From the NCBI GenBank assembly GCA_030549835.1, contig JAUQQR010000014.1, forward strand, positions 1-36,091: 36,091 bases of DNA, in the 5' to 3' direction. Made by a program: the position numbers and the translations under genes. Source of the DNA: Thermoproteota archaeon (GTDB taxonomy: Archaea > Thermoproteota > Thermoprotei_A > Sulfolobales > Acidilobaceae). The notes beneath the pieces were generated by a model that did no database searches, was not told the origin of the DNA, and saw only the letters and a program-made list of their open reading frames with translations. Numbering within the stretch: the first letter of the stretch is position 1; each line of letters begins with the position of its first letter. Of this stretch, positions 147 through 21,698 are shown piece after piece.

Positions 147-1334
147 TTATAGGTTTTCAGTTAGGAGTATTTGTTGTACTGCTCTTAGCCCTGAGCCTAG
201 CTCTATTTTTACTCCCATACTTGCTAGTGTTCTTTCTAGTAGTGCTACTACGGCTACTATGTCGTTATGATTTACTGATCCCATGTGCCCTATTCTGAAG
301 CTTTTTCCCCTTAGTGCTGGGTGTAGTGGTAGTGCTATTATTATATTTCCTCTTGCTAATCTTCTTCTTAATTCTATGGGGTCTACTCCTTGTGGTGTGT
401 ATACTGCTGTTACTGTGTTTGATGCTATTTCTTCTCTCTTAGCTACTACCTCTAAGCCTAATGCTCTTATACCTTCTCTTAGAGCCTTAGCTAGTATGTA
501 GTGTCTTTTGAATCTAGCTTCTAATCCTTCTTCTAGTATTCTTGTTAATGCTCTTTCTAGGGCTACTATTAGGTGTGTTGGTGGGGTTGCATGATATGAT
601 ATCCTACCATCCTCGTAGGCCTCCATAACTTTTCTCCAATCACTGAGTCTCATGTAGAAGCTTCTAACATTCCCGTTATTAGCTTCTAAGGCCTTAACAG
701 CTCTACTAGTACATAGTGCTACTATGGATACGCCAGGCGGGGTCTCTAAAGCTTTCTGACTAGTCGTAACTAGGACATCTACACCCCACCTACTACAATC
801 TAGGGGTTCTGCTGCAACACTAGAAACTCCATCAACGAATATTAGGGTATTATATTTACTAGCTATAGAAGCTAGACTCCTAACATCAGCTCTAACTCCA
901 GTACTAGTCTCAACATGAGTGACCAGTAGAGCATCATAGCCTCCTTTAGAGAGCTCTTCAGCAATAAAACCTAAATCAACAATATCCCCAACATCTGAGT
1001 ACAAAACCTTAACATCATAACCATTAACTCTAGCAATCTCAGCCCATCTATCACCAAAAAAGCCGTGAGATACTACGAGGACCCTAGAGCCAGGCTTAAG
1101 AATATTAATAAGTGAAGCCTCCATAGCTAGAGTTCCAGAGCCAGAGAACATAAAAACTGGAAAGTTACCATTAGCTCCTATAATAGACCTAAACTTCTTA
1201 ATAGCTCTACCATATATCTCAGCAAAATCTATACTAGTATGCTCGTAGACTGTAGATAACATATACCTAAGATTATCTATACTAAAAACAACAGGACCAG
1301 GAGTTAATAGTATCCTACGCTCATCCGGATACAA
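147..1334 (-). CDS. Class V aminotransferase (serine-pyruvate / alanine-glyoxylate type)
   Basis: A 395-residue PLP enzyme of fold type I, in the family that includes alanine-glyoxylate and serine-pyruvate aminotransferases. The start LLTPGPV is the typical opening of this family. The FMFSGSGTLAMEA stretch (about 61-73) forms the cofactor phosphate site, FVDGVSS (about 166-172) holds the PLP-binding Asp, and VTTSQKALETPPG places the Schiff-base lysine at K194. Length is normal. The start is a TTG with a GGTG site nine bases before it and a TATA-like TATTTAAG about 40 bases upstream (near 1368-1376). It is divergent from the CTP synthase gene. Likely cytoplasmic, in glycine/serine/alanine/glyoxylate exchange. 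The exact substrate pair cannot be read from sequence. Third codon positions shift strongly from T to A along the gene (see findings). Confidence 0.9.
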   Translation of the reverse strand: MYPDERRILLTPGPVVFSIDNLRYMLSTVYEHTSIDFAEIYGRAIKKFRSIIGANGNFPVFMFSGSGTLAMEASLINILKPGSRVLVVSHGFFGDRWAEIARVNGYDVKVLYSDVGDIVDLGFIAEELSKGGYDALLVTHVETSTGVRADVRSLASIASKYNTLIFVDGVSSVAAEPLDCSRWGVDVLVTTSQKALETPPGVSIVALCTSRAVKALEANNGNVRSFYMRLSDWRKVMEAYEDGRISYHATPPTHLIVALERALTRILEEGLEARFKRHYILAKALREGIRALGLEVVAKREEIASNTVTAVYTPQGVDPIELRRRLARGNIIIALPLHPALRGKSFRIGHMGSVNHNDIVAVVALLERTLASMGVKIELGSGLRAVQQILLTENL

Positions 1335-1777
1335 GCATAAACACCAATATAGTCTTGGATAGTAAGAACTTAAATATTAGCAGAGAATTCTACTATCTAA
1401 AGCAGGAGATATGAAAGTATAATAGCTACAAATGCGAAGTTAAAGCTACACTAGCTCTCTTAGCAGCTTCATATCTAAACTCCTCATAATACACTATTAT
1501 CTCTATCTTTATACTCAGAGTATCTCCTCAAGATAATATGGTAAATTCCTAATAAACTATTAAGCCTAAGTTTATGGACTATACACTTATCGCTGAATAT
1601 ACTACTACTATTAAGCTTACTATAAGGCTTCTTCCACGATCTTATAAGCTCTCTAAGGATACTATAATGTATGTATGTAACTTTCATTTACGTAATGTAG
1701 TTACAATTGTAACATTTGTAGTATTATGTTTAGCCTTTTATTAGCCTTAACTTATATTAATGTAAAGTGTGTAGTGT
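1335..1777. promoter_or_regulatory. Divergent intergenic region between aminotransferase and pyrG
   Basis: This 443-base gap carries the minus-strand promoter of the aminotransferase near 1368-1376. At its other end is the plus-strand promoter of pyrG: the TATA-like CTTATATTAA at 1751-1760 lies 18-27 bases before the pyrG ATG, so the pyrG message is probably leaderless. A 67-codon open frame on the minus strand (1484-1687) has no recognised motif and no ribosome site, so I do not call it a gene. Confidence 0.5.
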
Positions 1778-3379
1778 ATGGTTAAGTATGTATTTACTAC
1801 TGGTGGTGTTTTATCTAGTGTTGGTAAGGGTATTGTAGCTGCTAGTTTAGGTTTACTACTCTCAGCTAGGGGTTATAGTGTTAGTGCTGTTAAAATAGAT
1901 CCTTATATTAATGTTGATGCTGGAACTATGAATCCGTATGCTCATGGGGAGGTGTTTGTTACAGATGATGGAGGAGAGACAGATCTAGATTTAGGTCATT
2001 ATGAGAGGTTCCTTAATATTAATCTGACTAAGAAGCATAATATAACAACTGGCCAGATATATCTTAGTGTTATTATGAAAGAGAGGAGAGGAGATTATCT
2101 AGGCCAGACTGTTCAAGTCATACCACATATAACAGAGGAGATTAAGAGTAGACTTAGAGAGCTATCACGCGATGTTGACATACTTATAGTTGAAATTGGA
2201 GGAACAGTAGGTGATATTGAGAGTCTTCCATTCTTAGAAGCTGCTAGGCAGATGAGGCTTGAGGAGGGTTATGAGAATACACTATTTATACACGTGGCTC
2301 TAGCTCCAGAGCTCACAGTAACTGGAGAGCAGAAGACTAAGCCAGTACAGCATAGCGTACAAGAGCTTAGAAGGATAGGAATACAGCCTGATATTATCAT
2401 AGTAAGGTCTAGGAGGCCTCTTGAAGCTGAAGCAAGACGTAAGATAGCTCTCCACTCTACACTCCCTGAGAGCCATGTTTTCAGTGATTACGATGTTGAC
2501 ACTATATATAGGTTACCGTTAATACTTGAAGATCAAGGTCTTGGGAGCCTTGTAGTTAAGAGGTTAGAGCTTAGAGATAGCAAGCCTAGATTAGAGGAAT
2601 GGATAGACTTCGTAGATAGGCTTGTATACTCTAGTAGAACCGTGAAGATAGCTATGATCGGGAAATATACTAAGCTTAGAGATAGCTATATTAGTATAAT
2701 TGAAGCACTGAGACATGCTGGAGCTCATCTAGGATTAAAGCCTGAGCTTATATGGTTAGAAGCTACAGATATAGAAGAGGGTAAGCTAAACTTAGAAGAT
2801 GCACTCTCAGGTATAGATGGGGCAATAGTACTACCAGGATTTGGGAAGAGAGGAGTTGAAGGCAAAATTAAAGCTATAAGATTCTTGAGGGAGAATAAGA
2901 TACCAACATTAGGAATATGCTTCGGGCTCCAATTAACAGTTGTAGAGGCTGCAAGAAACATAATTGGACTTGAAGGAGCACATACAACAGAAGTAGATCC
3001 AAACACCTCCCACCCAGTAGTAGATCTACTACCAGAGCAGAAAAACATTGATAAACTAGGTGGGACAATGAGGCTAGGATTAAGCCCAATAGTAGTATAT
3101 AGAGAGACACTAGCATATAAACTATATAAAGCAGACCTAGTATATGAGAGACATAGACATAGGTATGAAGTTAATAATAAGTATATTGATATGCTTGAGA
3201 AGGCAGGGTTAAAAGTTAGTGGCGTAAACCCGGATAACTTAGTAGAGATTATGGAATATGATACGAGAATACACCCATTCTATATAGGTTTACAGTCACA
3301 TCCAGAGTTTAGGAGTAGGCCATTAAAGCCGAGCCCACCGTTCATAGGATTACTAGTAGCTACTGCTAAAATTAAGTAA
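1778..3379 (+). CDS. pyrG: CTP synthase
   Basis: CTP synthase converts UTP, ATP and glutamine to CTP, the last step of pyrimidine nucleotide synthesis, in the cytoplasm. At 533 residues it is full length. The N-terminal amidoligase domain opens with [13 protein letters not shown] (nucleotide-binding loop) and continues with [15 protein letters not shown] and [13 protein letters not shown]. The C-terminal class I glutaminase domain has its nucleophile C381 in GICFGLQ and the rest of the triad as H508 and E510 in SHPEF. The ATG lies just after a TATA box, which suggests a leaderless message. It stands alone between divergent and convergent neighbours. Codons 1-50 end in T 35 times and in A 10 times; codons 359-408 show the reverse (T 10, A 28). 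Confidence 0.98.
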
Positions 3380-3423
3380 TACTTCTAATTTAGCTATATT
3401 ACTCCTTACTAATTGCTATTCTT

Positions 3424-3771
3424 TTATGTCTTCGCTTCTTCTTGTTTTCTTAGTAGTGTAAATACTATCTTGTTTATTCTTAGTTCTACATACTTCTTTA
3501 TTCCTCTTTCTCCAGGCATATATACGCTTGATACTATACCTACTTCTTCTAATCTCCTTATTTGACTACTAATATTTGCTTTACTCTGCTTAATCTCCCT
3601 AGCTATATAATCTAGGTCTTTAGGACCTGTTGCTAGAAGCTCTATTATCTTAGCTCTAGTCTCATTTGCTAATGCTAATGCTAGCCTAGCTATGCTTCTA
3701 GGCCCGCTAACATACATAATATTATCTTTCTCTATAACACCCTCCTTCTCTGGAATAAACTCTTCAGACAC
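3424..3771 (-). CDS. ArsR-like winged-helix transcriptional regulator
   Basis: A 115-residue DNA-binding protein. Residues about 25-95 form a winged helix of ArsR type: ALANETRAKIIELLATGPKD is the first helix pair, YIAREIKQSKANISSQIRRLEE is the helix-turn-helix, and GIVSSVYMPGERGIKKYVEL is the beta wing. No metal-binding Cys cluster is visible, so a metal sensor role is not supported. It starts at GTG, with a GGGGTG site upstream. It lies convergent to pyrG, and its upstream side opens on the long gap 3772-4716, where some of the palindromes could be its operators (inference). Target and ligand are unknown. Confidence 0.8.
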   Translation of the reverse strand: MSEEFIPEKEGVIEKDNIMYVSGPRSIARLALALANETRAKIIELLATGPKDLDYIAREIKQSKANISSQIRRLEEVGIVSSVYMPGERGIKKYVELRINKIVFTLLRKQEEAKT

Positions 3772-4510
3772 CTAGTATACACCCCTAAAATATGCTACCA
3801 CTATTTACTCTTAAAGATCAAAACTTAAAACCTTAACACCTAAATTCAATGCTTAAACCATATATATTCATGTTAAATTACTTACAGTAAGCCCACACAC
3901 TTCCTTAAATTAATATTCGAAATTAACATTAGTTAATCTATAAAACTGTAATTAAAGAATAAGATAATATATCAACATCTACAAACACTAAACACTATTA
4001 GGGGATTGGGAGATAAGACTAGGATGCTATTATAGTAACTGTAAAACCTATAGGCATATAGTTAGTCCTATGAGAGACAGTAACTATAAATTCACCATAC
4101 TGATTTATGGGTCGCACTCAACCTCTATATGAACTATTTAAGCCCATATAACTAATTTGAGAATCTCATCGTTTAACCATAGTTTAAACCTGCGAGAAGT
4201 TAACTATACTTAAACTATATTAGATTAATGTCTCTAGTAGAGTTAACCGCCAGTTAACTCTACCAGCCCTAAACCCGTGAGCTCCCCCATCAATCTCCAT
4301 AACCCCATTATTCAGGAAGTCTGTATATTAAAGTGATACATATCAAGATACTCTGCCTTAGAGCCTCTATAATTTAGCTAGCTACTAGGACTAAAGCAGA
4401 TATGAAACCTCTAAGACACGGAATACCTCAATATAGGTATTTTTCTATCACGAACTTAAAGTAATACCTACAACTTAGGGTAAGGCTATATGCTAGAGCT
4501 TAGAGCTGGA

Positions 4511-4541
4511 TTATATAAGCGATCTGTACATGAACATGTAC
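4511..4541 (+). promoter_or_regulatory. TATA box followed by a palindromic operator-like site
   Basis: TTATATAAG at 4511-4519 is a good archaeal TATA box. The palindrome GTACATGAACATGTAC at 4526-4541 sits between it and the expected transcription start near 4540, where a bound protein would block initiation. It could drive the small open frame at 4546 or give the gene at 4717 a long leader. That this is an operator is inference from symmetry and position. Confidence 0.4.
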
Positions 4542-4545
4542 TTGG

Positions 4546-4635
4546 ATGTATTACTTTATCTTGGAATATCCTAGAGACGTAAACTCTACTTTTACAAGTA
4601 TCTTGCCCGACTTAAATAGTGGGATTACAAGTTAA
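4546..4635 (+). CDS. Possible 29-residue small protein
   Basis: A short frame starts with ATG about where a transcript from the 4511 TATA box would begin, so it could be read as a leaderless message. The product begins MYYFILEYPRDVN and ends NSGITS. It has no family I recognise and codon use gives no support. Position relative to the promoter is the only evidence. Confidence 0.2.
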   Translation: MYYFILEYPRDVNSTFTSILPDLNSGITS

Positions 4636-4716
4636 GCATTTACTAAGGATTCCCCTTTTTTAACTATCATAAGCTTTATAGGCATTATAGATACTCTGTA
4701 GTATTGAGGTGATAGT

Positions 4717-6555
4717 GTGGGCTGGCTAACTATTATAGGATTTGCTCTTATAGGTCTCTTAGTTCTTCAAGTTGGTCAGCCCACATCCATAGATAATCTT
4801 GGTGGTTCTAGTAGTGGGTATGATATTGGAGTTCATTCTCAGAGTGATCCTAGGGCTGGTGTTTCTACTAGAGGTTTCTGGAGTTGGCAGGATTACCCAT
4901 ACTTTGTCCCTGATGTTGAGCCTATAGTCGTGGACTTAGTTAGCAACTATACTGTTTCATGGTTTACTAAGCCTGATAGTTTCATTGTTGATGTTGATTG
5001 GCTTAAAGTTGGGTGGAGCTTCTCTAGGATACTATTAAGAGCTGATGTTTATCTCGTTAGTATTGTCCCAGGTAGGCCTGCTGTCCAGTATGATAGGCCA
5101 TTCTGGGTCTACATTAATGGTGTCCCGGCTCTCCTGGGATCTACTGTTCAGAGGTTTAACCAGACTGTTATTGTTGATGTAACACACCTCTACAATATTA
5201 TAGTTGGGAGGAGTCTTAACATTACTATAGCTTTAAGAAACTGGGCTTTACCAGATTTAGGTTTAACTGGAGCTTTTGTTGTTAATCTTAAACTCCTACT
5301 CTACCCTGGACCTAAGCCTGAGGGGTTACCAGATACTATTATACCATTATTTGCTTATAGCTCTAGGACGTCTTGGCACGGCATTTCTAATGTCTGGCTT
5401 GATAGGGCTAGTCCCATTGCCTGGGAGGTTGTTAGAATACCTGGAGGTGTTAGTAGAGCCTTACTAATACTCTATACTGAAGGCTTCTCTGTAGACGAGT
5501 TCTGGTACTATAATATACCGCCTGACAGGCTCATAGTTATAGCCTCAGATGGTGTACCAATAGCTATAGCTCAGCCACAGCCATGGATCCATACTGGAGG
5601 TTTAAGCCCACTACTATGGAGGCCTGTACCTAATATTAAGACATTAGGCTTCGAGCCTCTAATAATAGATGTTACAGGTATGCTACCACTACTAGTTGGG
5701 ACCCGTAATATAACTATAACAGTATCGAGGTTACAGAACTACTGGACGATTATAGCTGCACTAGCACTATATACTGAGCCTAGGGCTTTAAGCTATACGC
5801 TCCTAAGATATACACCTATTAAGTCTGAAGTCTCCGAGAGTGAGCGCCAAGTTGGTGTGACAGCTGGAGGTGTTAGAATATTCAATTATACAATAGTAGC
5901 TTCGAGGAGTCTATCAGCTATATCAATAATAGGAACGACTGCTGGTAGCTTTATAGCATCAACACATATGAGTAGCTTTATTAGGGCTACACAATTATAT
6001 GATGAGGAGTTTGTATGGACTAATCTAACATTAAAATTAGGCTGGGATTATAGGACTAGTATTACTCCTAGTGAGCGTATCGGCATCTTTAAACCATTTA
6101 AGTTTAGCAAAGAGTGGGTTAGGGATGTTAAATATGGATTCCTAGTATTCCCTGAAGGAGATATATCTAAGGCAACTACAGGGAACCCTGTCCCGGCAAA
6201 CTTCTCACTACGAGTCATAATTGATAGAGAAGAGCTTAGAATAGATACAAGCTTAATGCTAACAGGAATAGAGAGAAGCTATGAGGGAAGCCTTAGAGCC
6301 GTGAGTGAACTTGCAGGTAGGATGATGTTCATAAGCCCAACTTCAGCTATAATAACAGCATTAACTAAAGCAATGGGTGAGACTATAAGAATAGAGCGTG
6401 CTAATGAATGGAGATATAGTAGGCTGGCTAAAACCAACCTACCACTATCAGAATTCTACACTAAGATACATGGATACAATGAATGGCCTAGATGGAGCTA
6501 TAAGAGTATAGAGCTCACTATTAAGCAGAACCCGTCTAATAATATTATAAGCTAA
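4717..6555 (+). CDS. Secreted PNGase A-family peptide-N-glycosidase-like protein
   Basis: A 612-residue protein resembling peptide-N4-(N-acetyl-beta-glucosaminyl)asparagine amidase A, which removes N-glycans from glycopeptides. The N-terminal hydrophobic stretch (about 3-20) is a signal peptide or anchor, so it acts outside the cell. Family landmarks follow in order: QYDRPFWVYINGVP, DVTHLYNIIVG, LTGAFVVNLKLLLYPGPKP, VDEFWYYNIPPDRL, then TGGLSPLLWRPV and DVTGMLPLL. These match the conserved DEFWYSNPP and GGxxPLLWRP segments of the plant, fungal and archaeal family. The start is GTG with GAGGTGATA just before it and a TATA box near 4675-4682. Archaeal surface proteins are heavily N-glycosylated, so deglycosylation of captured proteins or of its own coat is plausible. 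Activity is unproven. Confidence 0.75.
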   Translation: MGWLTIIGFALIGLLVLQVGQPTSIDNLGGSSSGYDIGVHSQSDPRAGVSTRGFWSWQDYPYFVPDVEPIVVDLVSNYTVSWFTKPDSFIVDVDWLKVGWSFSRILLRADVYLVSIVPGRPAVQYDRPFWVYINGVPALLGSTVQRFNQTVIVDVTHLYNIIVGRSLNITIALRNWALPDLGLTGAFVVNLKLLLYPGPKPEGLPDTIIPLFAYSSRTSWHGISNVWLDRASPIAWEVVRIPGGVSRALLILYTEGFSVDEFWYYNIPPDRLIVIASDGVPIAIAQPQPWIHTGGLSPLLWRPVPNIKTLGFEPLIIDVTGMLPLLVGTRNITITVSRLQNYWTIIAALALYTEPRALSYTLLRYTPIKSEVSESERQVGVTAGGVRIFNYTIVASRSLSAISIIGTTAGSFIASTHMSSFIRATQLYDEEFVWTNLTLKLGWDYRTSITPSERIGIFKPFKFSKEWVRDVKYGFLVFPEGDISKATTGNPVPANFSLRVIIDREELRIDTSLMLTGIERSYEGSLRAVSELAGRMMFISPTSAIITALTKAMGETIRIERANEWRYSRLAKTNLPLSEFYTKIHGYNEWPRWSYKSIELTIKQNPSNNIIS

Positions 6556-12703: not shown

Positions 12704-12908
12704 TATAAAAGCACCTAGAGGCTTAATTAGCGAGGGGAACTTTAAAGCTTAACGTATGATAGATAGTAAATAGTGGTTTTCTTGCTTACATAATTCTATA
12801 GTTATAATTAGTTAGAAATATATGTGGGCTTATATTCCTATTATTTTCACACTATTTAGCTTAAAATCTTTGAGTTAACATAGTTTAATTAGGCTAGGGG
12901 TGGTGGAT

Positions 12909-13328
12909 ATGGTTAGAATATCTGAGATTATTAAGGTTGACTCTAAGGGTAGGATAACAATACCCCAGACTATTAGGGAAGCATTAAATGTAGAGCCTGG
13001 AATGCTTATGGCTCTAATAGCTGATTTAGATAAGAAAGAGATTATTGTTAATCCTATAACTACGAGAGGAGAATCTATATATGAGTTTGATCTATACTTG
13101 ATAGATAAGCCTGGATCACTAGCTAAGGTAACTAGTGTAATTGCAAATTATAAGGCTGATATAGTAGCATCTAAGTGTGCAAGTATAGCTAGAGGAGAAG
13201 AGGCTAACTGTGTATTAATAGTTGATATGAGTACTGCTAGTATAGATGCTGAGAGTTTAAAGAAAGAACTCGAGAACTTAGATGTAGTAATTCAGGTAAG
13301 GACTAAGAGGTTTGAGAGTAGATATTAA
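12909..13328 (+). CDS. AbrB/SpoVT-type DNA-binding domain fused to ACT domain
   Basis: About 139 residues. The N-terminal swapped-hairpin AbrB domain reads IIKVDSKGRITIPQTIREAL. The C-terminal half (YEFDLYLIDKPGSLAKVTSV onward) is an ACT domain, a fold that usually binds amino acids or other small ligands. The protein is thus probably a ligand-responsive regulator, perhaps of amino-acid metabolism (inference). I place the start at ATG 12909, because GGGGTGGTGG just upstream makes a good ribosome site; a GTG at 12900 is in frame but lies inside that site. It precedes the DUF72 gene by 55 bases on the same strand. Confidence 0.82.
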   Translation: MVRISEIIKVDSKGRITIPQTIREALNVEPGMLMALIADLDKKEIIVNPITTRGESIYEFDLYLIDKPGSLAKVTSVIANYKADIVASKCASIARGEEANCVLIVDMSTASIDAESLKKELENLDVVIQVRTKRFESRY

Positions 13329-13383: not shown

Positions 13384-14133
13384 ATGGGTATACGTATCCT
13401 AGTAGGTACTTGTGGCTTCCAGAGGTCTAGAAGACTACACTATAGTAACCTAGATGTAGTAGAGGTACAGCAAACATTCTACGATCCTAGAGTTCTAGAA
13501 ACATTCTATAACTGGAGGAGAGAGGCTCCTCTAGACTACGAGTTTACAGTAAAAGCTTGGATGCTAGTATCTCATGAGTATGATATAAGGCTATGGTCGA
13601 GAATCAAAGGAGATATCCCCGGCGATAAGAGGAACTATGGTAGCTTAAAGGTAACTAGTGAAACCCTATGGGCTTGGAGTAAGACTATTGAAGTAGTTGA
13701 GGTCCTCAACTCTAAGGTTATAGTTGTTCAGACTCCTCCAAGTTTTAGAGCATCAGAGGAGAATGCTATTAGAGCTACTAAATTCTTTACTACAGTAGAG
13801 AGTAGAGGTAGGATTATAGTCTGGGAGCCTAGAGGTGACTGGTGGGAGAAGCTTGATCTCCTACTAAAAATTGCTCGAGAGACAGGTGTAAAAATTGGAG
13901 GAGATATCCTTAGGGGTCGGGTATTGCCGGAGTGGCAAGATATAGTCTATGCTAGACTCCACGGCTTAGGGGGGAGTGAGGTTAACTATAGGTATAAGTA
14001 TAAGGATGAGGATTTAGTTAAACTTAAAGACCTAATATTTAGACTCAAGCCTAGAGTAGCATACATTCTATTCAATAATGTATACTCTTATGATGATAGT
14101 ATTCAGTTCAAGAAGATACTAAAATCTGAATAG
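13384..14133 (+). CDS. DUF72 (YecE-like) TIM-barrel protein
   Basis: A 249-residue member of the DUF72 family, a TIM-barrel group of unknown biochemical role. Typical segments are LVGTCGF at the start, then VEVQQTFYDP, a FTVKAW strand, VVQTPPSF, WEPRGDWW and the C-terminal YILFNNVYSYDDS. Start is ATG; upstream TTGGAGAC gives a weak ribosome site. It may share a transcript with the AbrB-ACT gene. Its last 15 bases overlap the convergent Hint-domain gene. Confidence 0.85.
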   Translation: MGIRILVGTCGFQRSRRLHYSNLDVVEVQQTFYDPRVLETFYNWRREAPLDYEFTVKAWMLVSHEYDIRLWSRIKGDIPGDKRNYGSLKVTSETLWAWSKTIEVVEVLNSKVIVVQTPPSFRASEENAIRATKFFTTVESRGRIIVWEPRGDWWEKLDLLLKIARETGVKIGGDILRGRVLPEWQDIVYARLHGLGGSEVNYRYKYKDEDLVKLKDLIFRLKPRVAYILFNNVYSYDDSIQFKKILKSE

Positions 14134-15117
14134 GATAGGGTATATACCGGCAAATATAAAACCATTACTTGTTTTAAATGAGTATACATAGCCTATATAG
14201 TCTCCCCTACGGTATCCTGTAACTTTCACCATTACTATATCGCCGAGAGCTAGCTTAACAATATTCTTAAATGTTAGCATTGTATACCCTTCAAAACCTA
14301 GTGGTATACCTCCACATAGCAGGTGTGCTACTACAAGCCTATATATCCTCTTAGAAACGCTACTTCTCCTCATATGGCTATAGATATGCTCTACATAGGC
14401 AGACCTAGCATACCTTCTCATAATATTCTTTAGTTTATGTAGGGGTTTTGTTGGTAGCTTCTCACCCATATCTCTAGCCTTCATACCACTAATAACACTA
14501 ACACTACACTTCTTTAATCCTCTACTAGAAAGTTTAGATGGGTAGCCTAGGAGTCTTGAAGACCATATGGCTTCTGATACTCTAAGTTGATCTTCATAGC
14601 ATTTTACAGATAATTTTCTATGCTCATCTTCTAAGCTGTAATTTAACTCTCTATGCTTTTTAAAGCTTGTAGAGCTAATATCATACCATTCATGAGACCA
14701 GCATACTATGTAGGGTGGAATTTTAACCTTACTCGATTTAGGCTCTGATATTACATTAATCATTTTACGGCTTCTCAGCTTAACAAATGAAACTAGTATA
14801 TCCCCCCTCTTCAAGCTACCAACACTCTTAGCTATAAGTCTACCATAATCATCTATAACTACAACTCTCTGGCTCTCTGGAGCTCTAAAATAGCCGCCTA
14901 TGAAATCAATAGTATAGATGCTATCTACTCTACCCCTACTAGCATCTAGAATTCTGGTAAAGGTTACACGGTAATCTGACGGGTCTAAGCTTAAAACCTC
15001 AATAGAGCTCTCCCCACCAACCATATAGGTGTTATAGAGTTCACCTACATAAACTAATCTCACTAAACCATTAATCCTAGCCATTATAGGAGTATCCTCC
15101 GGCAAACCCAGACTCAA
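14119..15117 (-). CDS. Free-standing intein-like (Hint) protein lacking splicing residues
   Basis: A 332-residue protein whose two ends match an intein while no host protein surrounds it. Residues 4-112 follow the N-terminal Hint blocks: GLPEDTPIMARINGLVRL, VYVGEL, VLSLDP, then GGYFRAPESQRVVVIDDYG and LKRGDILV. The end follows block F/G (GYVYSFKTSNGFIFAGIYP). Catalytic positions are changed: the first residue, normally Cys or Ser, aligns to Gly; the block B TxxH is PxxQ; the terminal His-Asn is Arg-Phe. No LAGLIDADG endonuclease motif is seen in the middle (about 120-270), which is basic and Cys-containing. TTG start behind GGAGGG; a second TTG four codons later is possible. Function unknown; splicing is not expected. 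Confidence 0.75.
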   Translation of the reverse strand: MSLGLPEDTPIMARINGLVRLVYVGELYNTYMVGGESSIEVLSLDPSDYRVTFTRILDASRGRVDSIYTIDFIGGYFRAPESQRVVVIDDYGRLIAKSVGSLKRGDILVSFVKLRSRKMINVISEPKSSKVKIPPYIVCWSHEWYDISSTSFKKHRELNYSLEDEHRKLSVKCYEDQLRVSEAIWSSRLLGYPSKLSSRGLKKCSVSVISGMKARDMGEKLPTKPLHKLKNIMRRYARSAYVEHIYSHMRRSSVSKRIYRLVVAHLLCGGIPLGFEGYTMLTFKNIVKLALGDIVMVKVTGYRRGDYIGYVYSFKTSNGFIFAGIYPILFRF

Positions 15118-15270
15118 AACCCTCCAGCTCCATCCACCTAAATCTTAGAGTTTACAATCTAATATCAGTAGCCCTAATAATTTAAAAGTATAGTATTCAT
15201 GCTAAACTCTAAACATTTTACTTTAAGGTAATACCAATCTAGCAAGTTACTATAGGTAGGATGAGCTTAC

Positions 15271-15513
15271 ATGCTCAACTCTACTACATTCAACCTAGAA
15301 GCTAGACTTAAGAAAATTATAGATAATGTTATCCCAGGGTTATACCATAGACTAAATCTGGTATCCCTCAACACCTACAACACTCCATTCTACAAGCTAG
15401 TACTTACAGATAGATGTGAAGCTATAAAATTAATAATTAAAACTACAGGAAATAATAAATTAGCAAATACAATAATAGATAACACCTTAAACTTAATAAA
15501 AAGAGAAATATGA
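15271..15513 (+). CDS. Small unrecognised protein (80 residues)
   Basis: An 80-residue frame divergent from the Hint-like gene. It is mostly helical by pattern (EARLKKIIDNVIPGL, then AIKLIIKTTGNNKLAN), ends KREI and matches no family I know. ATG start; TAGGTAGGATG just upstream is a fair ribosome site and ACTTTAAGG near 15222-15230 a possible TATA box. The 3' end abuts the structured repeat at 15530. It could be a real small gene or chance. Confidence 0.4.
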   Translation: MLNSTTFNLEARLKKIIDNVIPGLYHRLNLVSLNTYNTPFYKLVLTDRCEAIKLIIKTTGNNKLANTIIDNTLNLIKREI

Positions 15514-15869: not shown

Positions 15870-16577
15870 TTAGGGTTTTATTTTCACTCCTAGTATCCTT
15901 GCAATATTCTCTGTCTCTAAGGCTTTATCTATACTCCCAGAGTATATTATTTCCCCCCTTTCTATAATGTATGCTTCATCTACGATTCTCTTTGCTAACA
16001 TTACGTTTGACTCTGCTATAAGTATGCCTACTCCTTTACTAGCTATCTCTCTTAGTGCTTTACTTAGTCTCTCTACAACTATTGGAGCTAGCCCTTCTAG
16101 GAGCTCATCTAAGAGCATGTATTTAGGGTTCTGTGCTAGAGCTCTAGCTATTGCTACCATTCTCTTCTCTCCACCACTAAGGTAAAAGCCTTGCCTCTTT
16201 AGGAATCCTCTAATCTCTGGGAATACTCCTAGTGCTATCTCTATAGCTTCATCAACATTCCTACCTGCTAGCTTAGCTGCTAGCTTTATGTTCTCCTCTA
16301 CAGTTAGCCATGGGAATATTCTTAAATCTTCTGGAGCATAAGAAACCCCATACTTTACTCTCTCATGTACACTCTTCGATGTTAATTCCATGTTATCAAT
16401 AGTGACTCTACCCTTTACAGGCTTATAGAATCCCATTATGGTCTTTATAGTTGTCGTCTTACCTGCACCATTCCTGCCGAGTAGGCATACTATAGTGCCT
16501 CTTGCTACTGTTAGAGTAACACCTCTCAGTATTTCAACGCCACTAATAGATACGTGTAATCCCTCAGCTTTAAGCAT
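15870..16577 (-). CDS. livF: Branched-chain amino-acid ABC transporter ATPase (LivF-like)
   Basis: ATP-binding subunit of a high-affinity amino-acid importer, about 235 residues. Walker A is GRNGAGKTT, the Q-loop region runs through VSYAPEDLRIFPWLTVEEN, the signature is LSGGEKRM and Walker B is YMLLDEL. It is last in the minus-strand operon. I prefer ATG 16577, eight bases into the end of the LivG gene, because AGGTGGG lies just before it; a GTG three codons upstream falls in that site. LivF pairs with LivG to drive LivH and LivM. Confidence 0.92.
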   Translation of the reverse strand: MLKAEGLHVSISGVEILRGVTLTVARGTIVCLLGRNGAGKTTTIKTIMGFYKPVKGRVTIDNMELTSKSVHERVKYGVSYAPEDLRIFPWLTVEENIKLAAKLAGRNVDEAIEIALGVFPEIRGFLKRQGFYLSGGEKRMVAIARALAQNPKYMLLDELLEGLAPIVVERLSKALREIASKGVGILIAESNVMLAKRIVDEAYIIERGEIIYSGSIDKALETENIARILGVKIKP

Positions 16578-17334
16578 AGAGCCCACCTAGGAGGACTGCT
16601 CTAACGTCTTCTCTACTCCTTACATCTTCTGGGGGACCGTCAGCTAGTATTCTACCACTATGCATTGCTATTATCCTATTCGCATAGCTGAAAACTATAT
16701 CCATATCGTGCTCTACAATGATACTAGATATGCCTGTAGCTTTTATAGCTGATACTATCCTATCTATTATATCAAACTTATCTCTAGTAGATACACCACT
16801 TGTAGGCTCATCTAGTAATAGTAGTTTAGGTTTTAGAGCTAATGTCATTACAACATCTAATATCTTCCTATCACCTTGTGATACCTCCAAGGGTAGCTTA
16901 TCGAGATTCTTCTCTAGCCCCACGAGCTTAGCTAATTGTATAGCCTCCTCTATCACATCAGTGTGAGACTCGAGAGATCTAAGCATACTCAAATTTATAC
17001 CTCTCCTTGAAGCTATCGCGATAGCAATATTCTCTAGGAGGGAAATACTCCAGGAGACATTTACAAATTGAAAGCTTCTAGCAATACCAAGCTTTACTCT
17101 ACTTGCCATATCTAGCCTACTAATATCTCTACCATTAAAGGCTATTAAGCCCGAGTCTGGCTTAAGGTAGCCACTAACTAGGTTTACTAGAGTTGTCTTC
17201 CCGGCGCCATTAGGCCCTATTAGGAAGATTAGTTCACCCTCATATACTCTGAAAGATACTCCATCTACAGCTCTAACTCCGCCAAAATACTTACGCAGGT
17301 TGGATACTTCTAAGAGGGGAGTTTCAGTATTCAT
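16570..17334 (-). CDS. livG: Branched-chain amino-acid ABC transporter ATPase (LivG-like)
   Basis: The partner ATPase, about 254 residues. Walker A is GPNGAGKTT, Walker B LLLLDEPTSGVS and the switch histidine is in IIVEHDMD. The signature loop reads VSQGDRK, looser than the usual LSGGQ, as is common for LivG. Preferred start is ATG 17334 with AGGTGG five bases before it; the in-frame GTG at 17343 directly follows the LivM stop. Tight spacing on both sides shows cotranscription. Confidence 0.92.
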   Translation of the reverse strand: MNTETPLLEVSNLRKYFGGVRAVDGVSFRVYEGELIFLIGPNGAGKTTLVNLVSGYLKPDSGLIAFNGRDISRLDMASRVKLGIARSFQFVNVSWSISLLENIAIAIASRRGINLSMLRSLESHTDVIEEAIQLAKLVGLEKNLDKLPLEVSQGDRKILDVVMTLALKPKLLLLDEPTSGVSTRDKFDIIDRIVSAIKATGISSIIVEHDMDIVFSYANRIIAMHSGRILADGPPEDVRSREDVRAVLLGGLYA

Positions 17335-17343
17335 AGATACCAC

Positions 17344-18357
17344 CTAGAATTTAAACTGAAGGCGTAGAGCACTAAATAATCTAGCCATCTTCTTGAATCC
17401 TTCTAGCTCAGTTAATCCTAGTAGACCTCTAGGCATGAAAAACATTATAGCTATAATAGTAATACCTAGTATTAAGTACCAGTGGATTGTTATGCGTTGA
17501 GCTATAGTCTCGAGGTAGACGTAGGTAAGAGCACCGATTATAGGACCTAAGAAATACATTGTCCCCCCGAGTATACTCATAAAGACAATTTTACCTGATA
17601 GAGTCCAGTATGCTAGATCTGGTGTGACTAGCCTATTTATTGGCGCGTAGAGAGCGCCAGCTATTCCAGCGTAGATAGCAGATATCACTAGAGCTAGTAG
17701 CCTATACCTATTCACGTTAACACCTAATGCTACAGCTCTAGTCTCAGCATCTTTTATAACTCTTAAAGTATAACCAAATGGTGAGTTGACTATATACCAC
17801 ATAATAATCGCTAATACCGTAAACCATAGTAGAGCATAGTAGTGGTACACCATGTTAAAGGCATGATATCCTAGACCAGTAGTATCGTAGATAAAGAATA
17901 GTGTAGGTCTTGGAATCCTAATTCCATCAGTACCCCCTGTTATATGGTAGAACTTTACGTAGAACCCCCAGAGTATTTGAGCTGTAACGAGCATTAGGAT
18001 AGCGAAGAATATACCCCTATACCTTACGGCAATAAATCCTACTATTAATGCTAGAAGAGCTGATAGTAAGACACCAATGAGTACTTGTACTTCAAGTATT
18101 CTAAGACCAATATATTTTACTGATAAGCCTACAGCATAAGCTCCTAGTCCAACGAATGCAGCGTGGCCAAAGCTTAGGAGGCCAGTATAATTGAATAAGA
18201 GGTTAAAGCCTAGAGCAGCTATAGCTAATATTATACCATATGTTAGCATAACCTCCCAACCTGGCATAATACTACTTATCACTGGATATAGTAGTCCAGC
18301 TATTACCGCCACTATGACTATAGATCTAATATTATTGCCGATCTCTCTTCTCACCAA
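17344..18357 (-). CDS. livM: Branched-chain amino-acid ABC transporter permease (LivM-like)
   Basis: A 337-residue integral membrane permease with about nine to ten hydrophobic segments. The family landmark GLLSFGHAAFVGLGAYAVG sits near residues 60-80, and TGGTDGIRIPRP is the typical TGGxxG loop of LivM. The TTG start (or a GTG one codon later) follows GGAGGGGGTAAGGG and overlaps the LivH stop. It forms the membrane channel with LivH. Confidence 0.92.
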   Translation of the reverse strand: MVRREIGNNIRSIVIVAVIAGLLYPVISSIMPGWEVMLTYGIILAIAALGFNLLFNYTGLLSFGHAAFVGLGAYAVGLSVKYIGLRILEVQVLIGVLLSALLALIVGFIAVRYRGIFFAILMLVTAQILWGFYVKFYHITGGTDGIRIPRPTLFFIYDTTGLGYHAFNMVYHYYALLWFTVLAIIMWYIVNSPFGYTLRVIKDAETRAVALGVNVNRYRLLALVISAIYAGIAGALYAPINRLVTPDLAYWTLSGKIVFMSILGGTMYFLGPIIGALTYVYLETIAQRITIHWYLILGITIIAIMFFMPRGLLGLTELEGFKKMARLFSALRLQFKF

Positions 18358-19250
18358 CCCTTACCCCCTCCAATACCTTCAGGCTTAAAGATTAAGACTA
18401 TGAGGGCTACAGTAAATAGTATGACGAGCTCTAACTCTGGGAAGAAGTATATCGAGAGTGTTCTGAATATGCTCACTATAAGAGCTCCAATGAGAGAGCC
18501 TATAAAACTACCGAGGCCCCCTATGACTAAGCCTACAAAGGCTACAATTAAGACATCTAGTGATAAGCCTAGGGCTACAGATGCTGTAGGGACGTAGAGG
18601 GCACCGCCTAATCCTGCTAGGAGAGAGGCTGTAATTATAGCTACTACTATTAATCTAATAACATTAGCTCCTAGAGCTTGTACCATCTCAGAGTCCATAG
18701 ATGTAGCTCTTAGCAGTAAGCCGAGATAAGTCCTATAAGTTAAAAGCCATAATGCTAGTATTATGAGGAATGCTACAATAATTACGAAGACTTTATATAG
18801 AGGGTAGGGTGAGCCAAATAAGTTAACTGTACCCATAGCGAAGAAAGCATCATTAGCTGCTAGAGGCATCCTCCCCCATACTATTTGGAATAATTCCTCA
18901 AAGATTATTAGCAAGGCGAATGTAACAATTAGTTGGAATGCATCTCCCTTCCCATAGGAGTATCTTAGCAGGGGAGTGACCATGACTAGTGAGACTAGAA
19001 CTGTGACTATAACAGCTATAGTTAGAGGGAGAACTAGTAGAAGTATTAGGTTACTACCAAATATTTTAACAATATAGTTTGCTGTAATCCATGCTACAGT
19101 ATAGGCTCCTAAAGTGAAGAGTGAGGCGTGAGCTAGGTTTACTATCCTCATTACACCATATATTATATTTAAACCTGAAACTATTAGAGATATGAGAGAC
19201 GCGAAGAAAAAAGTATCTAAGATATACCTAGCTAAAGTGTCTAAGCTCAA
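18351..19250 (-). CDS. livH: Branched-chain amino-acid ABC transporter permease (LivH-like)
   Basis: A 299-residue membrane permease with about eight hydrophobic segments. GLNIIYGVMRIVNLAHASLF and TLGAYTV match the N-terminal LivH signature, and VALGLSLDVLIVAFVGLVIGG with GSFIGSLIGAL the conserved coupling region. TTG start with GTGAGGATAG just upstream; 20 bases separate it from the binding-protein gene. It ends in a GTGA-type overlap with livM. Confidence 0.92.
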   Translation of the reverse strand: MSLDTLARYILDTFFFASLISLIVSGLNIIYGVMRIVNLAHASLFTLGAYTVAWITANYIVKIFGSNLILLLVLPLTIAVIVTVLVSLVMVTPLLRYSYGKGDAFQLIVTFALLIIFEELFQIVWGRMPLAANDAFFAMGTVNLFGSPYPLYKVFVIIVAFLIILALWLLTYRTYLGLLLRATSMDSEMVQALGANVIRLIVVAIITASLLAGLGGALYVPTASVALGLSLDVLIVAFVGLVIGGLGSFIGSLIGALIVSIFRTLSIYFFPELELVILFTVALIVLIFKPEGIGGGKGW

Positions 19251-19270
19251 CTATCCTCACTTACATTAAT

Positions 19271-20677
19271 TTATACTGGAAGCTCTCCTTCCCTCCAAGT
19301 CTCTCTAATCCAGTTATAGGCCATGGTAGGATCTTCTCGACCCTCCCAACCTTCTGGGACTGTTATCCTCTCTATAGGTATTCTTAGAGGGTTAGCTAAG
19401 ATATTGAATCCATAACGTGGATCCACTTTACTTATCCCAACTATAGCATTCTTATACCCCTGATGCTTATTTGGTCTCCTAGCTCTAATAGTTAGTATGC
19501 CAGCAGGCCCATATATAGATGCTCCTTCAATAAACTTTATTAGCTCATCAGCCTCAGGCCATCTACCTAAAGCTCCATATGCTCTCTCAACAGCAGCCTT
19601 ATACAGATATACTGCTGTATATGCCCCCTCACTACCATTAGTTGGATACTCTCCCCACCTCTTACGGTAATTCTCAACAAAGATTTTGTTAAGAGGATAG
19701 CTTTCATGTTCTGGATATAGGAAGTAGTAGTTAGCGTGAACACCGGCTACGAATCCTTCAGGATAATCTGACTCTACGAGGTGAGGTGCTATACCATGAC
19801 TAATGGTAGATACCACTTTCGCAACCTTAAAGAGGCCATAGGCTAAAGCTTGCTTATAGAAGTTTATAAAGTCCATAGCCCATAGAGATGTAGCTACGAT
19901 ATCTGTGCGGCCAGCCATCATCTTCGTTATGAATGGTCCAAAGTCTGTTACCCTAAAGAGCCCGGGCCAGAACTCCTCTACTACTTCAACCCTATCTCTA
20001 CCCAGGACTTTCTCGAATACTATCTGCATATGAGCATGAGCATTCCTACCGTACGCGTAGTCTGGATGAATATGTGCAATTCTAACTTTATCCTTCTCCA
20101 TTAAGTTAAAGAATTTTATAGCTCCTAGTGCAGCTGTAACTCCGTCAGCTGACTGTATATTTGTAATCCTAAAGGAAAACTTAGGGTCTGGCACGGTCTT
20201 CTCAAATAGTATATCTGTGCATCCATCTACAAAGAATGATATTATGCCTGCCTCCTCAGCTACAGGAGCTACGGCTGGGGTGTTGGATGAGCTTATCAAA
20301 CCAACATAAAACTCTATCCCCTCACCTATCATCGCCTTATATTCTCTAACAGTCTCATCAGGCGAAGTCTCATCCTTGATCACAGGCTCAATTCTTCTAC
20401 CGAGAATACCGCCAGCAGCATTAATCTCCTCTACAGCTAACATAGCCCCCTTAAATGTAGGATCGCCCCAGGGCGCTCCTCCACCCCTGGTCATGAACTG
20501 TAAGCCAATTTTTAAAGGCCTTGCTGGAACACGCTCTACTTCAGTGACAGGCTTCTCTACAAAACGCCTTCTAAACCATTCAGGAGCTGCGACATATAAG
20601 CCGAGAGCTGTAGCAGCACCACCAAGTATGAGACCACCAATAAGCCCCCTAAGAAAATCTCTTCTAGATACCGACAT
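19271..20677 (-). CDS. livK: Amino-acid/amide-binding protein of the liv transporter, Tat signal
   Basis: The extracellular ligand-binding subunit, about 468 residues and first in the operon. The start SVSRRDFLRG is a twin-arginine signal followed by a glycine/alanine-rich hydrophobic segment (about 12-30). It is therefore probably exported folded and anchored at the membrane. The mature part is a periplasmic-binding fold of LivK type (KIGLQFMTRGGG, AMLAVEEINAAGGILGRRIE, FYVGLISSSNTPAVAPVAEE). I place the start at ATG 20677 with TAGGAGAG upstream; an in-frame GTG nine bases earlier is too close to that site. A TATA-like box lies at 20724-20735. The ligand may be any branched-chain amino acid, amide or peptide breakdown product. 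Confidence 0.9.
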   Translation of the reverse strand: MSVSRRDFLRGLIGGLILGGAATALGLYVAAPEWFRRRFVEKPVTEVERVPARPLKIGLQFMTRGGGAPWGDPTFKGAMLAVEEINAAGGILGRRIEPVIKDETSPDETVREYKAMIGEGIEFYVGLISSSNTPAVAPVAEEAGIISFFVDGCTDILFEKTVPDPKFSFRITNIQSADGVTAALGAIKFFNLMEKDKVRIAHIHPDYAYGRNAHAHMQIVFEKVLGRDRVEVVEEFWPGLFRVTDFGPFITKMMAGRTDIVATSLWAMDFINFYKQALAYGLFKVAKVVSTISHGIAPHLVESDYPEGFVAGVHANYYFLYPEHESYPLNKIFVENYRKRWGEYPTNGSEGAYTAVYLYKAAVERAYGALGRWPEADELIKFIEGASIYGPAGILTIRARRPNKHQGYKNAIVGISKVDPRYGFNILANPLRIPIERITVPEGWEGREDPTMAYNWIRETWREGELPV

Positions 20678-20723
20678 CCGGCTCACTCTCCTAAACTCAC
20701 TACATATTATTTAGATGCCAGGC

Positions 20724-21119: not shown

Positions 21120-21698
21120 GTGTCTCTAGTCTTAGAGTATACTATTAAAGGTTTAGGGTCTATTATTGATAGGCTTGCTGGCGGTAGTAGACTCTACTCT
21201 ATGTATATTACTAAGCCTAAACCCGTGATTCTAGAGGCTGCTACAGGTTTCGGCGCTAATCTAGGCATTGTTCTCAGATTTGCTACTAGGCTCGGCGGGA
21301 TTGTTTATAGTGTAGATATTGGTGGTCCCCAGGTTTCTCTAGCTAAGATAGCCTATAGGAGTTATATTGAGAAGGGTGTTTTAGTTATTGAGAGGGGTGA
21401 CTTAAGGAATCTACATTATCCTAATGATTTCTTTGACTATGCCATAAACCATACTACAATGCACCATATTGACCGCGTAGATCTAGCTATTAGTGAGCAT
21501 TGGAGAACACTAAAGAGCAACGGTATACTAATAGTGATTGACTTAAACCCACATATACTAACTAGGGCTATACATAGCTTAAAGCTATTGAGAGAGTCTA
21601 AGGAGAATGTTATAAATGAAACCAGTAAAAGATTTAGAATCCTAGAGAGAGGTGAAGATAAATTATCATATTATATTATAGCAGTTAAAGAAACATAG
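21120..21698 (+). CDS. Class I SAM-dependent methyltransferase
   Basis: A 192-residue methyltransferase of Methyltransf_11 type. Motif I is ILEAATGFGANLGIV (about 38-52), the acidic residue after strand 2 is in VYSVDIG, and motif IV reads DYAINHTTMHHI, with the PxxF proline replaced. The post-IV segment LKSNGILIVIDL is clear. GTG start with weak upstream signals. It stands alone between the repeat and a convergent DUF2175 gene. The substrate is unknown; a small molecule or lipid is typical for this size. Confidence 0.8.
   Translation: MSLVLEYTIKGLGSIIDRLAGGSRLYSMYITKPKPVILEAATGFGANLGIVLRFATRLGGIVYSVDIGGPQVSLAKIAYRSYIEKGVLVIERGDLRNLHYPNDFFDYAINHTTMHHIDRVDLAISEHWRTLKSNGILIVIDLNPHILTRAIHSLKLLRESKENVINETSKRFRILERGEDKLSYYIIAVKET

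Follow-up and report, generated by a model that had tools for sequence, protein, structure and literature searches.

A Free-Standing, Intein-Derived Protein Without Splicing Residues in a Genus of Acidilobaceae

Introduction

Inteins are usually seen as parasites that persist only through splicing or homing. The textbook domesticated intein is yeast HO, which still cuts DNA. The locus described here raises the question of what an intein-like protein is doing in an archaeon as a gene of its own, with no host protein around it. The stretch of DNA analysed, referred to as the window, is 36,091 nucleotides long and is a single contig (JAUQQR010000014.1) within a 1.42-Mb archaeal draft genome (assembly GCA_030549835.1; Sulfolobales, Acidilobaceae). 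The gene is located at 14119-15117 on the minus strand. A first-pass annotation made from the sequence alone had described its product as a 332-residue, free-standing Hint-type protein in which the splicing residues are replaced.

The Gene and Its Homology to Inteins

The open reading frame is intact over 332 codons and is initiated by TTG. It lies in a stop-to-stop frame of only 341 codons, too short to hold an extein as well, and ends at the Hint borders as had been described. The first-pass annotation also gave the gene its own ribosome site. GGAGG is present at 15121-15125 but the spacing to the TTG is poor at only 3 nt. An alternative ATG start (Met12) is located at 15082-15084 on the minus strand, where GGAGG precedes it by about 11 nt, and translation may begin at either the TTG or the ATG.

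Profiles were needed to detect the intein match because single-sequence searches are weak. The window protein matched Pfam Intein_splicing below the cut-off in a single-sequence search (E = 0.023) and gave only sub-threshold, meaningless matches to NCBIfam. It scored 100 bits when compared to a profile of inteins alone. An alignment of the protein with its two orthologs (see below) matched an intein-only alignment of 24 inteins over essentially the whole length (hhalign, probability 99.9%, E = 1e-31), and the profile of the three orthologs reached solved inteins in the PDB, namely TFIIB mini-inteins (E = 1.5e-6). By profile comparison the homology to Hint is therefore far beyond chance, and the proposed relationship to inteins is borne out.

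Structure prediction gave a mixed result. When intein rows were included in its alignment, AlphaFold returned a Hint model of pLDDT 82 and pTM 0.82 in which residues 118-166 were of low confidence. All of the top Foldseek matches to this model were inteins, with 2cw7 and 1dq3, both archaeal intein endonucleases, in the lead. The best structural match was PI-PkoII/PI-TkoII (PDB 2cw7; TMq 0.66), which also combines Hint, endonuclease and accessory domain but differs in being a splicing intein of 537 aa with a two-LAGLIDADG endonuclease. From the three orthologs alone AlphaFold reached only pLDDT 42 and pTM 0.34, with a secondary-structure string similar to that of the intein-row model. The model with pTM 0.82 is thus not independent proof of the fold, and it is homology that supports a Hint fold.

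Orthologs and Other Relatives

The search for relatives covered 48 genomes from the family, 214 from the order and 229 sampled from across the class. Full-length matches were found in just three genomes of one genus, the window genome, G024 (36% identity) and G023 (35% identity), all three of which are draft genomes. Scanning 84,980 genomes with one protein as the query returned one ortholog only, and a search of IMG/VR with the window protein returned none. All three proteins are free-standing and 332 to 361 aa in length. Their stop-to-stop frames are 341, 360 and 368 codons, and none is inserted in frame in a host gene. Free-standing orthologs thus occur in two further species, and the window gene is not an isolated case. 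A hidden extein or host gene was also looked for and none was found, as the frames stop at the Hint borders in all three genomes.

All other relatives examined, whether from the family, the order or the class, were ordinary inteins, mostly in the RFC small subunit or in GspE-like secretion ATPases. Those examined in detail lie within long host proteins, either the RFC small subunit (LNA/S...HN/SDERG) or a GspE/VirB11-like secretion ATPase (A/S...HN/TGHGG). Sulfolobales RFC small subunit inteins (such as L055 and L069) are homologous to the window protein over the N-terminal Hint part, the second endonuclease half, the accessory domain and the C-terminal Hint part. They differ in being inserted in frame in a host and in having kept Ser1, TxxH, HN and Ser+1. 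The GspE/VirB11-like ATPase inteins (such as L053, L058 and the same-genus L072) show the same homology and are the best matches to the C-terminal half but likewise lie within a host gene with the catalytic splicing residues intact. Canonical inteins (PF14890) occur in G020, G023 and G024, and none was found in the window genome.

Two of the ATPase loci have features of their own. At L053 (contig C39 of genome G066, positions 164-4765) the ATPase contains two inteins about 6 residues apart (HN-TGHGGL-C). At L072 (contig C10 of G024, positions 592-3297) the intein is splicing-competent by sequence and its endonuclease is degenerate.

In the phylogenetic tree the three free-standing proteins form one clade with 100% support, which indicates a single origin. 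A long branch separates this clade from both the RFC and the ATPase inteins, and for this reason the parent intein family is not assignable to either.

Loss of Splicing Residues

The three orthologs were aligned with 27 inteins, in all of which the block A Ser, the block B Thr and His, the block F Asp and the terminal His-Asn are invariant. The position of the block A nucleophile is Gly in all three orthologs (Gly4 in the window protein, codon 15106-15108, minus strand), in place of the Ser of the 27 inteins; neither Cys nor Ser, nor the Ala of class 2 inteins, was found there. The block B TxxH is replaced by PxxQ in the window protein (P80..Q83; 14869-14880, minus strand) and by AxxY and SxxQ in the orthologs. 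The column of the block F Asp contains Ser, Arg and Glu, the window residue being Ser313. At the C-terminus, where His followed by Asn or Gln and then Cys, Ser or Thr would be expected, the window protein ends in R331-F332 and a stop codon, and the orthologs have E-S and A-P in the corresponding alignment columns.

In this alignment every tested splicing position was lost in all three proteins, and the replacements named in the first-pass annotation were found as given. With the exteins and the required residues both absent, the known mechanism makes no splicing possible.

Domain Layout and Endonuclease Remnant

All parts of the protein are encoded on the minus strand. The N-terminal Hint part (residues 1-117; 14767-15117) carries blocks A and B, scored 60 bits against the intein-only profile and was modelled with pLDDT mostly 85-98 when inteins were aligned. 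It is followed by a linker (residues 118-166; 14620-14766; pLDDT <50) that replaces the first LAGLIDADG half and contains a C139xxH142EW motif (CWSHEWYD), of which C139, H142, E143 and W144, together with D146, are invariant in all three orthologs. A remnant of the second LAGLIDADG half (residues 167-222; 14452-14619) is arranged as strand-helix-strand-strand and keeps W185, R188, G191 and P222 from inteins. Next is a helical part (residues 223-291; 14245-14451) resembling the accessory domain, named after PMC8966425, with the motifs S255-K256-R257 and H265-L-L-C268-G-G. The C-terminal Hint part (residues 292-332; 14122-14244) holds blocks F/G and ends in Arg-Phe at the place of the His-Asn of inteins.

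The central region had been put forward as a novel insert of 150 residues. This did not hold, as the region can be aligned with the second LAGLIDADG half and the accessory domain of the inteins. Residues 118-291 alone scored 21, 17 and 22 bits against the intein profile in the three proteins, compared to a maximum of 2.4 bits for shuffled controls (300 made, 215 giving any score). In the orthologs the match begins just past the second LAGLIDADG motif and extends through the accessory domain that lies between endonuclease and Hint. The insert is therefore a truncated endonuclease remnant. The alignments show the first LAGLIDADG half to be deleted in the free-standing proteins; the second motif is not conserved, and neither catalytic motif is left.

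Cys139, His142, Cys173, Cys204, His265 and Cys268 are shared without exception by the three proteins and are not conserved in inteins. The window protein has four cysteines and all four are invariant among the orthologs. The CxxH and HxxC residues are internal, and the protein terminates at the Hint border with no C-terminal zinc finger of multiple Cys-X-X-Cys units.

The protein could also be a free-standing endonuclease of the homing or programmed type, an archaeal counterpart of the yeast proteins HO and WHO. It would then cut at a specific site, perhaps in the form of a homodimer and by means of a metal-dependent active site rebuilt from Cys and His. The logic of HO and WHO is the same, being intein-like proteins without exteins in a gene of their own (PMC7282813), and both the gain of invariant Cys and His residues and the retention of the DNA-facing endonuclease half would suit such an enzyme. 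A LAGLIDADG endonuclease has two helices that carry catalytic acidic residues, or a single such helix if it works as a dimer. In the present proteins the first half is deleted, the region of the second helix is not conserved as LAGLIDADG and the three share no aligned acidic residue there. The gene also shows no sign of mobility, being single copy, syntenic and vertically inherited. An active endonuclease is improbable on these grounds.

All three proteins have a strongly basic insert (pI 9.9-10.6, net charge +15 to +20). In a published pair of inteins the active one has a pI of 10.23 and the degenerate one, for which DNA binding was not detectable, a pI of 5.45 (PMC8966425). Some degenerate inteins are also basic (for example L072, pI 9.8), which makes charge weak evidence for DNA binding. 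A basic module with Cys/His motifs could also serve an RNA-binding or other nucleic-acid role that does not involve DNA sequence recognition. The progenitor modules bind DNA, and such a role is improbable.

Genomic Neighborhood

The gene is convergent with a DUF72 gene (PF01904; 13384-14133, plus strand), which it overlaps by 15 bp, and the same arrangement is found at both orthologous loci. A conserved AbrB/MazE-ACT regulator-like gene (12900-13328, plus strand) lies upstream of DUF72. The order and orientation of AbrB-ACT, DUF72 and the Hint gene are the same in the window and in G024. The contig of G023 begins inside the 3' end of DUF72 and the convergent overlap is the same. On the other side is a divergent gene for a small 80-aa protein (15271-15513, plus strand), which has no Pfam match and is 33% identical to an 86-aa ORF in the same place in G024. 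In G023 the Hint gene is directly flanked by a divergent class I methyltransferase gene, which is next but one in G024. In the window it is located at 21120-21698 on the plus strand, separated from the Hint gene by an ABC-transporter block. This block (15870-20686, minus strand) is of the branched-chain type and encodes two ATPases, two permeases and a binding protein. Elsewhere in the window a 612-aa protein (4717-6555, plus strand) has a PNGase A domain (PF12222, E = 3e-23), which is unexpected in an archaeon.

AbrB-ACT is found near DUF72 without the Hint gene in another genus of the family (g12), and the pairing of these two is therefore older than the Hint gene. AbrB-ACT is present in the genomes G021 and G022, with another gene in the place of DUF72 and the Hint gene, which are both absent. 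This suggests that the Hint gene arrived beside DUF72 in the ancestor of the genus and was then inherited vertically.

The joint absence of the two genes despite the presence of AbrB-ACT, and their convergence in all three genomes with the Hint gene, would fit a role in protein contacts, with the Hint part as a binding platform and the protein acting as partner or inhibitor of DUF72 or of other host proteins. Convergent genes do not share a transcript, and the highly basic charge suggests nucleic acid as the target. DUF72 is moreover widespread in the family without the Hint gene, so that the functional tie between the two is weak. A role in protein contacts is rather unlikely. DUF72 barrels resemble UV-damage endonuclease (PMC11791011), which is a lead only.

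Selection or Decay

Among the three species the Hint gene had dN values of 0.67-0.70 and dS values of 2.0, 3.3 and saturated. These are simple estimates from Nei-Gojobori-style counts and not a codon-model test. The dN of neighboring genes in the same species was 0.35 for DUF72 and 0.18-0.19 for AbrB-ACT.

The gene could be a decaying fossil in which a fragment of an intein or endonuclease gene is still open by chance. It evolves faster than its neighbors (dN of 0.69 compared to 0.35 for DUF72 and 0.19 for AbrB-ACT), and the former catalytic positions vary between orthologs (R/E/A and F/S/P), as expected once released. Against this, pN is well below pS, and new motifs are common to the orthologs (CxSHEW, HLLCGG). 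Since synonymous sites are saturated and the frames are nevertheless open over 332-361 codons in three species, the gene is under selection and not decaying. Decay was rejected on this basis, and the earlier proposal that the gene is kept by selection stands. The Hint gene evolves fast yet is constrained, and a fossil is very unlikely.

Discussion

The gene at 14119-15117 on the minus strand encodes a splicing-dead, free-standing, intein-derived protein that is conserved in three species. We interpret it as a domesticated intein, probably non-cutting, kept as a basic and probably DNA-binding protein, a reading held with moderate confidence. An intein of the type found in the RFC small subunit or secretion ATPases of Sulfolobales would have left its host gene in the ancestor of the genus and settled as a separate gene beside DUF72. 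It would then have lost all residues required for splicing, together with the first LAGLIDADG half and its catalytic motifs, and retained the Hint scaffold, half of the DNA-facing part of the endonuclease and the basic accessory domain. Four invariant cysteines would have been gained and purifying selection would maintain the protein.

Non-cleaving DNA binding is the most economical mode of action because the Hint part, half a LAGLIDADG unit and a basic accessory domain remain. We infer it as the most likely mode, and the role of the cysteines likewise. The protein would be a DNA-associated factor or a regulator, in which Hint would provide the structural platform and the Cys/His residues would form either a metal site or disulfides. 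The accessory domains of some archaeal inteins are helix-turn-helix-like and modulate DNA recognition, but an isolated accessory domain gave no added DNA affinity, which counts against DNA binding (PMC8966425). The more specific proposal, a host DNA-binding protein without splicing or nuclease activity and with a metal site in the old endonuclease (C139xxH142, C173, C204, H265xxC268), is possible but tentative.

The closest known counterparts are HO and WHO of yeast. These are stand-alone, intein-derived and non-splicing; HO and one tested WHO protein still cut DNA, and they are described as the sole intein-zinc finger fusions in any organism (PMC7282813). The three archaeal proteins resemble them as intein-derived genes of their own that lack exteins and splicing, have lost the C-terminal splicing motif, keep an intein-like region and have an additional Cys-rich feature. 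HO and at least one tested WHO protein retain an active LAGLIDADG endonuclease, whereas the archaeal protein has lost half of the endonuclease along with both catalytic motifs. The Cys-X-X-Cys zinc finger of HO and WHO is C-terminal, and the archaeal Cys/His residues are found within what used to be the endonuclease. The origins are separate. The Pyrococcus horikoshii VMA intein shares a degenerate endonuclease with lost active-site aspartates but is still in its host, has a pI of 5.45 and showed no detectable DNA binding (PMC8966425).

A literature search for domesticated or stand-alone prokaryotic inteins found no described case in the papers covered, which is not proof of absence. Passages located in a review on recruited prokaryotic mobile elements name inteins only as splicing switches (PMC8987985). 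If a descendant of an archaeal intein neither splices nor cuts, then the Hint-plus-endonuclease scaffold can turn into an ordinary host protein, and this small protein of a thermophile would be a test case for the recruitment of selfish elements.
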